From Streptomyces capitiformicae (lineage in GTDB: Bacteria > Actinomycetota > Actinomycetes > Streptomycetales > Streptomycetaceae): a stretch of DNA of 64,000 nt. The stretch covers positions 5,773,486 to 5,837,485 of the forward strand of contig NZ_CP022161.1 of the NCBI RefSeq assembly GCF_002214185.1, given 5' to 3'. Below, piece after piece: positions 22,098 to 30,075 of the stretch. Each line of letters begins with the position of its first letter. Within the stretch, counting starts at the first letter, position 1. The notes under the pieces were generated by a model. The model was not told the DNA's origin and did not search any database. It saw nothing but the letters and a program-made list of their open reading frames with translations. A program made the translations under genes and the position numbers.

Positions 22098-22702
22098 CAC
22101 TCGATGCCCCTCTGGCCCTTCTGGCCGGCGTCCATGGGGTGCTTGACCTTGGACATGTCCGTCACCAGGTCCGCGAAGTCGACAAGCTTCTCGGGAGCGT
22201 TCCGCCCGGTGATGACGACATGCTGCGTCCCAGGCCGGTCCCGCAGCACGGAGATCACCTCATCGGTGTCGACCCACCCCCAGTGCATGGGATAAGCGAA
22301 CTCATCCAGCACATACAGCTTGTACGTCTCGGCGGCCAGATCCCGCTTGACCTGCTCCCAGCCCTCCCGGGCTTTCTCCTCGTTGGTCGAGTTGTCACCC
22401 TGGATGTCCCGCTGGACCCACGACCAGCCCTCACCCATCTTGTGCCAGTCGACGGACCCGCCCTCACCGCTCGCGCCCAGCACCCGCAGCGCGTTCTCCT
22501 CGCCGACCTTCCACTTGGCCGACTTGACGAACTGGAACACCCCGATGGGCCACCCCTGGTTCCAAGCCCGCAACGCCAGCCCGAACGCGGCGGTCGACTT
22601 GCCCTTCCCGATTCCCGTGTGCACCACGACAAGAGGCCGGTTACGACGCTGCCGCGTCGTCAGCCCGTCATCCGGTACGACACTCGGCTGTCCCTGAGGC
22701 AT
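22094..22702 (-). CDS. cobO: Cob(I)yrinic acid a,c-diamide adenosyltransferase
   Basis: A 202-residue ATP:corrinoid adenosyltransferase of the BtuR/CobA type. The ATP-binding loop VVHTGIGKGKSTAAFG is near residues 25-40, and conserved blocks QFVKSAKWKVGEENAL and YVLDEFAYPMHWGWVD follow. ATG 22702 overlaps the TAA of the chelatase gene (TAATG). It places the 5'-deoxyadenosyl group on the cobalt. Confidence 0.94.
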   Translation of the reverse strand: MPQGQPSVVPDDGLTTRQRRNRPLVVVHTGIGKGKSTAAFGLALRAWNQGWPIGVFQFVKSAKWKVGEENALRVLGASGEGGSVDWHKMGEGWSWVQRDIQGDNSTNEEKAREGWEQVKRDLAAETYKLYVLDEFAYPMHWGWVDTDEVISVLRDRPGTQHVVITGRNAPEKLVDFADLVTDMSKVKHPMDAGQKGQRGIEW

Positions 22703-24684
22703 TACGCGGCCCTCCTCTGTACGTCCTTCACCAGCCCGGCGATGGAATCCGCCCGCAACTCGTCCAACGTCACCGCCGTACCCCCCAACTCACCCGCGAG
22801 CTGCCCCGCCAGCCCCAGCCGCACCGGCCCCGACTCGCAGTCCACGACCACGGACGCGACTCCCTCGGCGGCGAACAGCCGCGCCGCACGCCCGGCGAGC
22901 GCGACGGGCTCCGGCCCACCCGTGGCCCGCCCGTCCGTCACGACCACGACGAGCGCCCGCCGCGCCGGATCCCGCAACCGCTCGACCCGCAGCACGTCAT
23001 GGGCCTTCAACAGCCCCGCGGCGAGTGGCGTCCGCCCACCCGTCGGCAGCGACTCAAGACGGGCCGCCGCCGCGTCCACCGACGAGGTCGGCGGCAACGC
23101 CACCTCGGCGGCCGACCCCCGGAAGGTCACCAGCCCCACCTTGTCCCGCCGCTGATACGCGTCAAGCAGCAGCGACAACACGGCTCCCTTCACGGCACTC
23201 ATCCGCTGCCGCGCCGCCATCGACCCGGAGGCGTCCACGACGAACAGCACGAGGTTCCCCTCACGCCCCTCGCGGACGGCCTGCCGCAGATCGTCCCGGC
23301 GCACGACCAGTCCCGGTCCCGACCGCCCCCGCGCCCGCTGGTGCGGGGCCGCGGCCTGCACCGTGGCCGCCAAGTGCAGCTTGGTGAGCGCCCCCCGGGG
23401 CCGCCGCGCTCCCATCGCCCGCCCGTGCTCGGTCCGCGCCCGCGAACGCCGCCCGGCCGCGCCCTCGCCGATGCCGGGCACGCTCAGCACCTTGGTACGA
23501 AACGGTTCCGAGGCCCGTACGGCCGACTGCTCGGAGGCCCCCGAGGGCTGCGGCCGGCCATCCTCCCCGGCCTCGGGCCGGGCACCGGTGTCACCACCCT
23601 GCGGCCCCTCGTCCGGCGACGGCTGCCCGCCGCCTCCGCCGGGCCCGTCCGGCCCCGGATCGGGGTCGTCGTCCCCGGAGAACTCCTCCAACGTGTCGTC
23701 GAGCTTGTCCTCGTCGAGCCCCGGCGCGTCGAAGGGATTCCGCCGCCGCCGGTGCGGCAGCGCGAGCAGCGCCGCCTGCCGCACGTCCTCGGCGAGCACG
23801 TCGGTCCGCCCGGCCCACGCGGCCAGCGCGGTGGCGGTCCGAGCCATGACGATGTCGGCCCGCATCCCGTCGACCTCGAAAGCCGCGCAGGTGGCGGCGA
23901 TCTGCCGCAGCGCCCCATCACCCAGCCGCACGGACGGCAACAACTCCCGTGCGGCGACGATCCGTTGACGTACGGCGGCTTCCTCGTCCGCCCAACGGGC
24001 CGCGAACCCGACCGGATCGTCGTCGTACGCCAGCCGGCGCCGTACGACCTCCACCCGCTGGTCCGGCTCCCGCGAGGCGGCCACCTCAACGGTCAGCCCG
24101 AATCGGTCCAGCAACTGCGGCCGCAGCTCACCCTCTTCGGGGTTCATGGTCCCGACGAGCAGGAACCGGGCGGCATGCCGTACGGAGACACCCTCGCGCT
24201 CGACGTACGAGGCACCCATGGCGGCGGCGTCCAGCAGCAGATCGACGAGATGATCGTGAAGGAGGTTGACCTCGTCGACGTACAGGATCCCGCGATGCGC
24301 GTCCGCGAGCAGCCCCGGCTCGAACGCCTTCACGCCCTCGGCCAGCGCCCGCTCGATGTCGAGCGCGCCGACGAGCCGGTCCTCGGAGGCCCCGACGGGC
24401 AGCTCGACCATCCGCGCGGGGCGCGGGACACCGGGGCGCGGCTCGTGCGGGCCGTCCGGGCACGTCGGATCCGGAGCCCCCGGATCGCACGAGAAACGGC
24501 ACCCGGCGACGACGTCCACCTCCGGCAGGAGCGCGGACAAGGCGCGGACGGCCGTGCTTTTCGCCGTCCCTTTCTCCCCACGCACGAGAACACCGCCCAC
24601 TGCGGGGCTCACCGCGTTGAGAAGCAGAGCCAGGCGCAGGTCGTCCTGCCCGACGACGGCCGTGAACGGATAGGGGACACTCAC
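22702..24684 (-). CDS. Fused ChlI-ChlD-type cobaltochelatase subunit (AAA+ plus vWA)
   Basis: A 660-residue motor subunit thought to partner CobN, the role of CobS and CobT in proteobacteria. The AAA+ half has Walker A GEKGTAKST (36-44), Walker B GILYVDEVNLL and LVGTMNPEEGELRPQLLDRF. An acidic, Gly/Pro-rich linker (LDDTLEEFSGDDDPDPG) joins it to a vWA domain whose MIDAS motif is FVVDASGSMAARQRM. GTG 24684 was chosen because the domain begins at once (YPFTAVVGQDDL); more upstream frames would read through the CRISPR remnant. A Mg-chelatase role is unlikely in this cob operon. Confidence 0.88.
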   Translation of the reverse strand: MSVPYPFTAVVGQDDLRLALLLNAVSPAVGGVLVRGEKGTAKSTAVRALSALLPEVDVVAGCRFSCDPGAPDPTCPDGPHEPRPGVPRPARMVELPVGASEDRLVGALDIERALAEGVKAFEPGLLADAHRGILYVDEVNLLHDHLVDLLLDAAAMGASYVEREGVSVRHAARFLLVGTMNPEEGELRPQLLDRFGLTVEVAASREPDQRVEVVRRRLAYDDDPVGFAARWADEEAAVRQRIVAARELLPSVRLGDGALRQIAATCAAFEVDGMRADIVMARTATALAAWAGRTDVLAEDVRQAALLALPHRRRRNPFDAPGLDEDKLDDTLEEFSGDDDPDPGPDGPGGGGGQPSPDEGPQGGDTGARPEAGEDGRPQPSGASEQSAVRASEPFRTKVLSVPGIGEGAAGRRSRARTEHGRAMGARRPRGALTKLHLAATVQAAAPHQRARGRSGPGLVVRRDDLRQAVREGREGNLVLFVVDASGSMAARQRMSAVKGAVLSLLLDAYQRRDKVGLVTFRGSAAEVALPPTSSVDAAAARLESLPTGGRTPLAAGLLKAHDVLRVERLRDPARRALVVVVTDGRATGGPEPVALAGRAARLFAAEGVASVVVDCESGPVRLGLAGQLAGELGGTAVTLDELRADSIAGLVKDVQRRAA

Positions 24685-24758: not shown

Positions 24759-24848
24759 ATGGTCCCCGCCGACGCGGGGGTGGTCCGGGCACGGCCAAAT
24801 CCACGGCTGTCCGTGCACTGTGTTCCCCGCCGACGCGGGGGTTCCCAG
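24759..24848. CRISPR. Two-repeat, one-spacer type I-E-like CRISPR remnant
   Basis: The 17-mer CCCCGCCGACGCGGGGG starts at 24764 and again at 24825, exactly 61 bp apart, the period of a 29-bp repeat plus 32-bp spacer. The repeats (24759-24787 and 24820-24848) resemble type I-E repeats of actinomycetes, ending in GTGGTCCG and TTCCCAG. The spacer is 24788-24819. No third repeat occurs one period either side, and no cas gene is in the window. The element fills the gap between cobN and the chelatase gene inside a single operon. Confidence 0.8.
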
Positions 24849-24853
24849 GGAGA

Positions 24854-28527
<3,674 letters not shown>

Positions 28528-28531
<4 letters not shown>

Positions 28532-30075
28532 GCGGGCGCTCCCGGTGGAATGAAAGGCAGTCCTTGCGGCGCGCCCGACTCGATGAGCCGCCACAGCGCG
28601 TCCGTGTCCGCGTGTTCCTCGATCAGATCGCCGAGCCGGTCGAGCTGCTCCTCGCGCAGCGCGGCGAACGACGTGTCGGCGGCCGGTACGAAGCGGCGCC
28701 CCGCGGCGGCCGCCACCTCGCGCAGAAAGGCCCGCCGGAACCCGTCCGACTCCAGCGAACCGTGCCAGTGCGTGCCCCAGGTCTGCCCGACCCGGCAGCC
28801 GTCGAGGAAGGGGGTTCCACCGCTGACCTCGGCGACCCCGTGGTGGATCTCGTACCCCTCGACGTGCTCACCGAGGGCTTCACCCACCGGCCGGGTGAGG
28901 GTCTTCTCCCGGGCGAACCGCACCCGCAGGGGCAGTATCCCGAGCCCGTCCACATGCCCGCGCCGGCTCTCGACCTCGTCCTCGATGTGCTCGCCGAGGA
29001 CCTGGAAGCCACCGCAGATGCCGAGGACGGGCCGCTGCTCGGCGGCCCTGTGCTTCAGGGCGTCGGCCAGCCCGCGTTCCCGCAGCCACTCCAGCGCCCG
29101 TACGGTTCCCCGGGTCCCCGGGACGACCACGAGATCGGCGTCGGCCAGTTCCTCCGGCCGGTCCACGAACCGCACGACGACACCGGGTTCGGCGGCCAGC
29201 GCGTCGACGTCCGTGAAGTTGGACATGAGGGGGACGGCACAGACGGCGACCCGCAGCACGTCCTCGCCGATGGGCGAAGAGACGTTCGACTCCCGCACGG
29301 TCCCGCGCGGCGAGACGCTCCCCCCCGCTCGGCTTCGCTCGCGCGGGGGGACCCCCATCCCGTCCTCCTCGTCGATGCCAAGCCCGTGCCGGAAGGGCAG
29401 CACACCGTACGTCCGCCGCCCGGTGAGTCCCCGCAGCATGTCGAGGCCGGGCTCCAGCAGGGAGACGTCCCCCCGGAACTTGTTGACGAGAAACCCGGCG
29501 ACGAGCGCCTGATCCTCGGGGGAGAGGAGTGCGACGGTCCCGAAGAAGGAGGCGAAGACGCCCCCACGGTCGATGTCGCCGACGACGAGGACCGGGAGCC
29601 CGGCATTCCGAGCGATCCCCATGTTCACGATGTCGGTCCGCCGAAGATTGATCTCGGCGGGAGAACCGGCCCCTTCACAGATCACCGCGTCATACGTGCC
29701 CCGCAACTCGGCGAGACACTCCAACACGGTCCCGAGCAGCCGCTGCTGCCGCCCCCCGTGATACCCACGCGCACTCAGCTCGCCCACCGGCTTCCCGAGC
29801 AACACGACTTGACTGCTCTGCTCCCCACCGGGCTTGAGCAGCACGGGATTCATCAACGCCGTCGGCTCGACCCGACAGGCCTGCGCCTGCATGGCCTGCG
29901 CCCGACCGATCTCGGCGCCCTCCCTCGTCACGAACGAATTGAGGGACATGTTCTGCGCCTTGAACGGCGCGACCTTGACCCCCTGCCGCACCAGCCACCG
30001 ACAGATCCCGGCGGTGACGACACTCTTCCCGGCATCGGAGGTGGTACCGGCAACGAGCAGCCCACCGCCGGTCAT
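28528..30075 (-). CDS. cobQ: Adenosylcobyric acid synthase, with a repeat-derived insertion
   Basis: A 515-residue glutamine amidotransferase that amidates side chains b, d, e and g. The N-terminal ATPase shows LLVAGTTSDAGKSVVTAG and KAQNMSLNSFVTREGAEIGR; the glutaminase half shows GTRGTVRALEWLRERG and VLGICGGFQVLGEH with the nucleophilic Cys. Near residue 245 an Arg/Ser-rich stretch (GVPPRERSRAGGSV) corresponds to a palindromic intergenic-type repeat sitting in frame. ATG 30075 overlaps the cbiB stop. Confidence 0.94.
29314..29360. repeat. Palindromic Streptomyces repeat inserted in frame in cobQ
   Basis: The plus strand reads CCCCCCGCTCGGCTTCGCTC followed by a GCGCGGGGGGACCCCCAT-like right half; the arms CCCCCCGC and GCGGGGGG pair over 8 bp. 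The same GGCTTCGCTCGAGCGG core recurs inside the MITE at 46332-46628, showing that it is a mobile or frequently copied motif. Confidence 0.7.

Follow-up and report, generated by a model that had tools for sequence, protein, structure and literature searches.

One-spacer type I-E CRISPR arrays beside core genes of Streptomyces carry guides that fit other genomes' alleles better than the linked gene

Introduction

The mini-CRISPRs of the Sulfolobales viruses SPV1 and SPV2 contain one or two spacers and no cas genes, and superinfection exclusion has been proposed as their function (PMC6858448). According to the available text of that paper, these arrays occupy the same genome position with different spacers, their targets lie near the array in close relatives and the virus's own target is mutated, which spares the virus itself (PMC6858448). 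This is the published system most like the arrays described here, which share with it the small number of spacers, the turnover of spacers, targets near the array and a mutated self target. Few spacers, relatives' targets near the array and a changed self target, the marks of an SPV-type conflict, are all found in the Streptomyces arrays. The viral arrays differ from them in location, since the Streptomyces arrays are of type I-E, are chromosomal and stand beside housekeeping genes, with the changes in a core coding gene.

The CreA guides of CreTA modules, as the available text of PMC8501985 presents them, are similar in having two repeats and one spacer-like guide, which uses the host Cascade and matches a linked gene in part. 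The type I-E system of Streptomyces avermitilis shares with our arrays the genus, an AAG PAM and 32-nt protospacers (PMC4762764). In the part of that paper available it has adaptive arrays directed against invaders, whereas the mini-arrays are fixed, hold one spacer and are directed against a neighbouring core gene. A further likeness, known for our arrays as a pattern in the sequences, is with gene drives.

Engineered CRISPR gene drives with a recoded rescue gene use Cas9 in sexual eukaryotes; the guide is linked to a changed copy that cannot be cut, and the unchanged alleles are targeted. The mini-arrays likewise combine a guide linked to a changed copy with unchanged alleles as targets. We know of no natural bacterial example of such drive logic, and none was found in open PubMed Central among the matches listed.

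Results and Discussion

The array and its neighbours

The window, by which we mean the whole 64,000-nt stretch of Streptomyces capitiformicae DNA analysed, contains two type I-E repeats with starts exactly 61 bp apart and a 32-nt spacer between them. Repeat 1 (24759..24787, plus strand) is 29 nt long and has the 8-nt crRNA 5' handle GTGGTCCG at its 3' end. It is followed on the same strand by the spacer (24788..24819) and by the 29-nt repeat 2 (24820..24848), the 3' part of which is degenerate among carriers. The repeat core TCCCCGCCGACGCGGGG has two mismatch-free copies in the 64 kb, and the 22-nt copies start 61 bp apart; direct reading thus confirms the spacing given in the first-pass annotation. 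Its assignment of the unit to type I-E is borne out by the palindromic 29-nt repeats, the length of the spacer and the period of 61. A second pair of these repeats, with three mismatches or fewer, was not found elsewhere in the window's own genome, and a promoter scan near the array found nothing.

Across the 40 carriers described below, the commonest base has a mean share of 0.88 in the handle columns of repeat 1 vs 0.66 in those of repeat 2. The better conservation in repeat 1 fits use of the array and supports it weakly, since ordinary arrays, too, often have a degenerate last repeat.

The array lies between its two partner genes. A putative cobaltochelatase gene (22702..24684, minus strand; TIGR02442, 868 bits, cut-off 779) is also its present target, and cobN (24854..28594, minus strand, start codon uncertain; TIGR02257, 1178 bits, cut-off 822) is targeted by the spacers of other carriers. 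The cob genes of the window are on the minus strand, as is a cobalamin riboswitch (RF00174, 31180-31322, 43.3 bits against a gathering score of 31.5).

Read in frame the spacer gives GTAKSTAVRAL, and it fits the Walker A region of the cobaltochelatase genes of other Streptomyces. The window's own chelatase gene encodes the same residues at 24539..24570 (minus strand), and the reported agreement of 24 of 32 bases was confirmed, with a seed mismatch at position 3. This match exceeds the maximum of 23/32 reached by shuffled spacers (40 carriers, 25 shuffles each, 1000 in total), whose best match to the gene pair was 19.0 +- 1.0. The triplet 5' of the target on the coding strand, the PAM position (24571..24573, minus strand), is AAA. 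In all 33 non-carrier loci read (32 without one duplicate) it is AAG, as the first-pass annotation had guessed for homologues. The codons of the window's own target are rarer than those in all but 6 of 478 windows of the chelatase gene.

Conservation in place

The genus search covered 392 genomes, 210 of which matched at E <= 1e-60. A match ran across the array in at least 19 of the 210, the window's own genome included; this is a lower bound, because divergent loci fall below the E limit. In a pattern scan for a type I-E repeat at the 3' end of cobN, the genomes of 84,980 species yielded 40 loci, of which 37 are from Streptomyces. The two sets together contain 51 loci that parse as a pair of repeats with 61-bp spacing; 11 of these repeat a genome already named and were excluded, which leaves 40 distinct carriers (34 named and six more, including the window). 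The mini-array is therefore present between cobN and the chelatase gene in 39 further Streptomyces genomes, with different spacers.

The ends of the tblastn matches to cobN and the chelatase gene are separated by 169-178 bp in carriers and by 2 or 5 bp in the 32 non-carriers read. A third repeat one period away is absent from all 51 parsed cob loci, so there is no growing multi-spacer memory, and none of the fetched cob loci, as read, is at a cas locus. The first-pass annotation took the array for a remnant, which understates a unit conserved in place in many genomes with changing spacers. It had also held that absence of the 61-bp spacing from all relatives would count against its reading, and the spacing is present in relatives.

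Two loci, in Streptomyces sp. WM6386 (L102) and S. ipomoeae (L114), have one repeat alone 3' of cobN, as if the spacer and one repeat had been lost by recombination. A further locus, L259 (G070:C119:222700-223800), has a 163-bp G+C-rich gap between the chelatase gene and cobN with no pair of repeats 61 bp apart.

The single-repeat loci L102 and L114 were left out of the sample, as were a truncated locus (L125), unrelated hits (L100, L107, L124) and a duplicate non-carrier (L091), which is still within the count of 33 AAG loci. The diverged loci L084 and L052/L096 are in the tree and were left out of the spacer counts. The own site of L115 lies outside its locus; this carrier is absent from the analysis of read and unread positions and was taken from L174 in the comparison of own matches. 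Non-carriers are the best-matching loci, mostly of one clade, and were not drawn at random. The 40 carriers are not independent because they are related, and tests made per site lessen the effect of kinship without removing it.

Cas genes and descent

The window's genome has no match to the PF09344 or PF08798 models, which we take to be Cas7e and Cas6e, so the type I-E cas genes expected in the genome of an ordinary type I-E system were not found there. Support for the first-pass annotation is divided here: relatives have the 61-bp spacing, and the window's own genome has no other type I-E array and no match for Cas7e or Cas6e. PF09344 is present in 15 of the 37 named carriers, S. coelicoflavus (L111) and S. 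shenzhenensis (L116) among them, vs 151 of the 392 genomes searched across the genus, which shows no association between array and Cas. For the remaining 22 named carriers PF08798 gave no match above the cut-off, an absence that is not certain as most of these genomes are draft assemblies and two of them (G475 and G477) contain longer arrays of a like repeat.

On the tree of the flanking genes the carrier label changes five times vs 25 in shuffles, which indicates that descent is mostly local. The spacers of the window and of its sister S. atratus (L112) are directed at different genes, which means that guides turn over faster than the DNA around them. The array and the changed gene may possibly have been transferred together.

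Targets of the spacers

Every one of the 40 spacers has its most consistent match in one of the two flanking genes, cobN and the chelatase gene. Together the matches fall on 18 sites, which include both strands, and each site was located by residue in every locus. Two targets are weak (L105 reaches at most 22/32 and L085 at most 23/32). At each of the 18 sites AA-N is the PAM found most often in non-carriers, against an AA background of 1.3%. The AAG-type PAM of type I-E targets is thus found as AA-N throughout and as AAG itself at ten sites only, the other eight having AAC. AAG is the PAM of the active type I-E system of S. avermitilis, according to the available text of PMC4762764, and AAC presumably also serves as a PAM here.

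The match to the carrier's own gene is below the mean of the 32 non-carrier loci in 37 of 40 carriers (Wilcoxon p = 6.5e-8). This supports the earlier claim that the window's spacer is closer to homologues than to its own chelatase gene. The spacer of S. djakartensis (L130), for example, matches non-carrier genes at 32/32 and its own at 28/32. In 32/40 the own match is also below the mean of those other carriers that have spacers for different sites (p = 1.2e-5). In the remaining eight, the window (24 vs 23.9) among them, the own copy is at least as good a match as the copies of other carriers.

Read and unread positions

Every sixth base of a target is not read by type I-E Cascade. Position 6 is likewise exempt in the available text of the type I-B CreA paper (PMC8501985). 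In the cobN and chelatase targets the read positions 3, 9, 15, 21 and 27 and the unread positions 6, 12, 18, 24 and 30 are all codon wobble positions. The mismatch between spacers and non-carriers is 0.31 (plus strand sites) and 0.27 (minus strand sites) at read wobble positions, and 0.61 and 0.71 at unread ones. Non-carriers among themselves differ by 0.25 at read and 0.22 at unread wobble positions.

The contrast has p = 1.1e-4 with each site taken once (17 sites), and of the 252 splits of the ten wobble positions only that into read and unread is so extreme. The concentration of mismatches at unread positions indicates that the guides kept their match to others' alleles where it counts and drifted elsewhere. 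Together with the AA-N PAM, this pattern in the sequences suggests that Cascade reads these guides.

The carrier's own copy

Relative to the copies of other carriers at the corresponding site, a carrier's own gene shows an excess mismatch of 0.18 at read wobble positions (p = 2.6e-5) and of 0.05 at non-wobble positions (p = 9e-5). At unread positions the excess is 0.007, which is no difference (p = 0.43; n = 39 in each comparison).

PAM and seed were scored as an AA PAM together with perfect seed positions 1-5, 7 and 8. By this measure PAM and seed are present at the own target in 7 of 40 carriers, in 751 of 1261 pairs of a spacer with a non-carrier and in 503 of 1349 pairs of a spacer with another carrier. 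Ten of the 40 spacers say nothing on seed loss, because no non-carrier has PAM and seed either. There are 24 spacers for which half or more of the non-carriers have AA and seed; for these the mean share is 0.91 among non-carriers and 0.53 among other carriers, and the own gene retains both in 7/24. PAM and seed are kept at the own target in 1 of 15 carriers with Cas7e and 6 of 25 without, a difference that is not significant (Fisher p = 0.22) and in which four of the 15 are uninformative.

At residue 1198 of cobN the PAM position is CGG or CGC (arginine) in all seven carriers that target it at present and AAG in 30 of 32 non-carriers. PAM and seed are present there in 9 of 31 other carriers vs 29 of 32 non-carriers.

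At this residue and at chelatase residues 25 and 40, PAM or seed is more often changed in carriers that target elsewhere than in non-carriers. Such changes at untargeted sites may be scars of earlier guides or may simply reflect membership of a clade.

The codons of the own target are unusually rare in 8 of 39 carriers at p <= 0.05 (combined p = 9e-8); this result is mixed, as the other carriers also stand out at three favourite sites (median p 0.19-0.25).

Arrays beside thrS and other genes

A search of 295 genomes for thrS matched in 293, and the best 30 loci were read because they resemble a carrier. Among these best 30 of 293 loci, 11 have a mini-array with repeats 61 bp apart directly after the thrS stop codon. 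Several thrS loci retain a single repeat. The cob arrays lie in the gap that separates cobN from the chelatase gene and the thrS arrays immediately follow thrS; they are not borne by viruses or mobile elements.

A consistent site in thrS was found for 10 of the 11 arrays. The exception, L145, has two good repeats 61 bp apart and no recognisable thrS target (own match 19/32); it was left out of the position test, from which L141 and L147, non-carriers in the site comparison, were also dropped. The mismatch of thrS spacers to non-carriers is 0.63 at unread and 0.19 at read positions, with 10/10 in the same direction (p = 0.002). The control is less even here, since non-carriers among themselves differ by 0.23 at unread and 0.15 at read positions, and five of the ten arrays share one site. 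At read positions the own thrS copy has a mismatch of 0.32 (p = 0.02 vs non-carriers); at non-wobble positions it is no different from the copies of other carriers (p = 0.75). L165 has CGC as its own PAM, and AAG stands there in 19/19 non-carriers and 10/10 other carriers.

A spacer matching hisS reaches 24-26/32 in 18 of the 30 hisS loci read, with AAG as the PAM of the best match in 26/30. Its array (L196) is the only hisS case, as none of these 30 loci contains one. One-spacer arrays also occur upstream of a DUF3817 gene (L192, G487), with 25/32 to the adjacent gene in its own locus, and upstream of a putative class II DAHP synthase gene (L176, G500), with 24/32 to the adjacent gene. The latter case is weak, having a mixed PAM and a degenerate repeat 2. 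Ten further loci from the repeat search were compared with their neighbourhood, and only L030 (thrS) exceeded 22/32; L024-L028, L031, L034, L036 and L037 reached 22/32 or less.

Alternative explanations

The arrays could be scars of autoimmunity, in which a spacer was taken by accident from the neighbouring chromosome or from a relative, the own target escaped by mutation and the array is now useless. This would account for targets close to the array that are changed in the carrier at PAM, seed or read positions, and it agrees with the finding that 25 of 40 distinct carriers lack a Cas7e match. Drift in a useless spacer should, however, be even, and the concentration of mismatches to other genomes at unread positions disfavours accident followed by escape. 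The array is also in one place in 40 carriers while its spacers change, and the conservation of the handle fits use, with the reservation given above about last repeats. We regard this explanation as unlikely.

It is quite improbable that the crRNA is regulatory, with Cascade binding the own cobN or chelatase gene by partial complementarity and repressing it in the manner of CreA-type guides. Regulation of own genes is disfavoured because the own targets lose what Cascade needs, PAM and seed being missing at 33/40, and the own copies match worse than those of other carriers at read positions. A regulatory guide would sit well with a two-repeat mini-array that adjoins its target gene, with partial own-gene matches of 18-29/32 and with the seven carriers that keep AA and seed. 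The targets lie in coding regions and on both strands, whereas CreA, in the available text, keeps its PAM and seed positions 1-5 and 7-11 at its own promoter target, where they serve repression (PMC8501985). Retention of PAM and seed at the own target, as in CreA/CreR, was found in only seven of 40. The action on self expression that the first-pass annotation entertained therefore finds little encouragement in own copies changed at the read positions.

Ordinary immunity against phages or plasmids that carry homologues of cobN, chelatase, thrS or hisS is a similarly poor prospect. Plasmid-borne chelatase genes exist and the spacers fit homologues better than the own gene, yet immunity leaves unexplained why the arrays adjoin the very gene targeted. 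The window spacer, the only one searched, reached at best 81.3% in 50,697 phage records and 87.5% at full length in 72,556 plasmid records, the latter in a haloarchaeal plasmid, and this check, proposed with the first-pass annotation, gave nothing convincing.

That the spacer is a decayed duplicate of the chelatase gene, as its translation into Walker A residues might suggest, was rejected and is practically impossible, since in relatives the same repeats enclose unrelated spacers, of which many derive from cobN or the antisense strand.

A guide linked to a spared gene

We consider it probable, from the sequences compared here, that the array provides a cis-linked one-spacer guide that attacks homologous alleles and spares the changed gene beside it. 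The conserved place of the arrays, their changing spacers, the PAM, the pattern at read and unread positions and the changes at the own target are directly seen. Transcription of the array, cutting and the competitive outcome are what we infer.

The unit would be a single-spacer type I-E CRISPR fixed beside a core gene, and its crRNA would be produced and put to use only where the cell provides type I-E Cas proteins. The crRNA would guide Cascade to the homologous gene of other Streptomyces where this has an AA-N PAM and matches at the read positions, and changes in the PAM, seed or read wobble positions of the carrier's linked copy would protect that copy. Conjugation, for example, could bring the carrier and non-carrier alleles together in a single Cas-positive cell; the latter would then be cut, and the former would persist or act as the repair template. 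In a carrier the alleles destroyed would be those that enter the cell, and where carrier DNA enters another cell they would be those already resident. Action on rivals or on incoming DNA, which the first-pass annotation had listed among its options, would thus be the likeliest use. In the window's strain the unit must lie dormant as long as no Cas proteins come from outside.

A bolder reading, which we offer tentatively, is that the arrays may form a natural CRISPR drive without cas genes of its own. They would enter Cas-positive Streptomyces by conjugation, travelling with the changed copies of cobN/chelatase, thrS or hisS, and would destroy the resident alleles, which the carrier allele would replace. 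Spacer turnover and the changes at old target sites would then record an arms race. The pattern of match and change in the sequences fits what is expected of a gene drive, in which the linked copy is changed and the unprotected allele is matched.

Implications

The comparison of read and unread positions offers an easy means of searching for guides under selection, applicable to any type I-E genome. If the linked guide proposed here is real, CRISPR would act in a contest between housekeeping-gene alleles, in which the guide is linked to the allele it spares, and not as a memory of invaders. This would explain a class of self-targeting spacers. It would also constitute a selective force on synonymous codons in core genes, and it would bear on gene exchange in Streptomyces.
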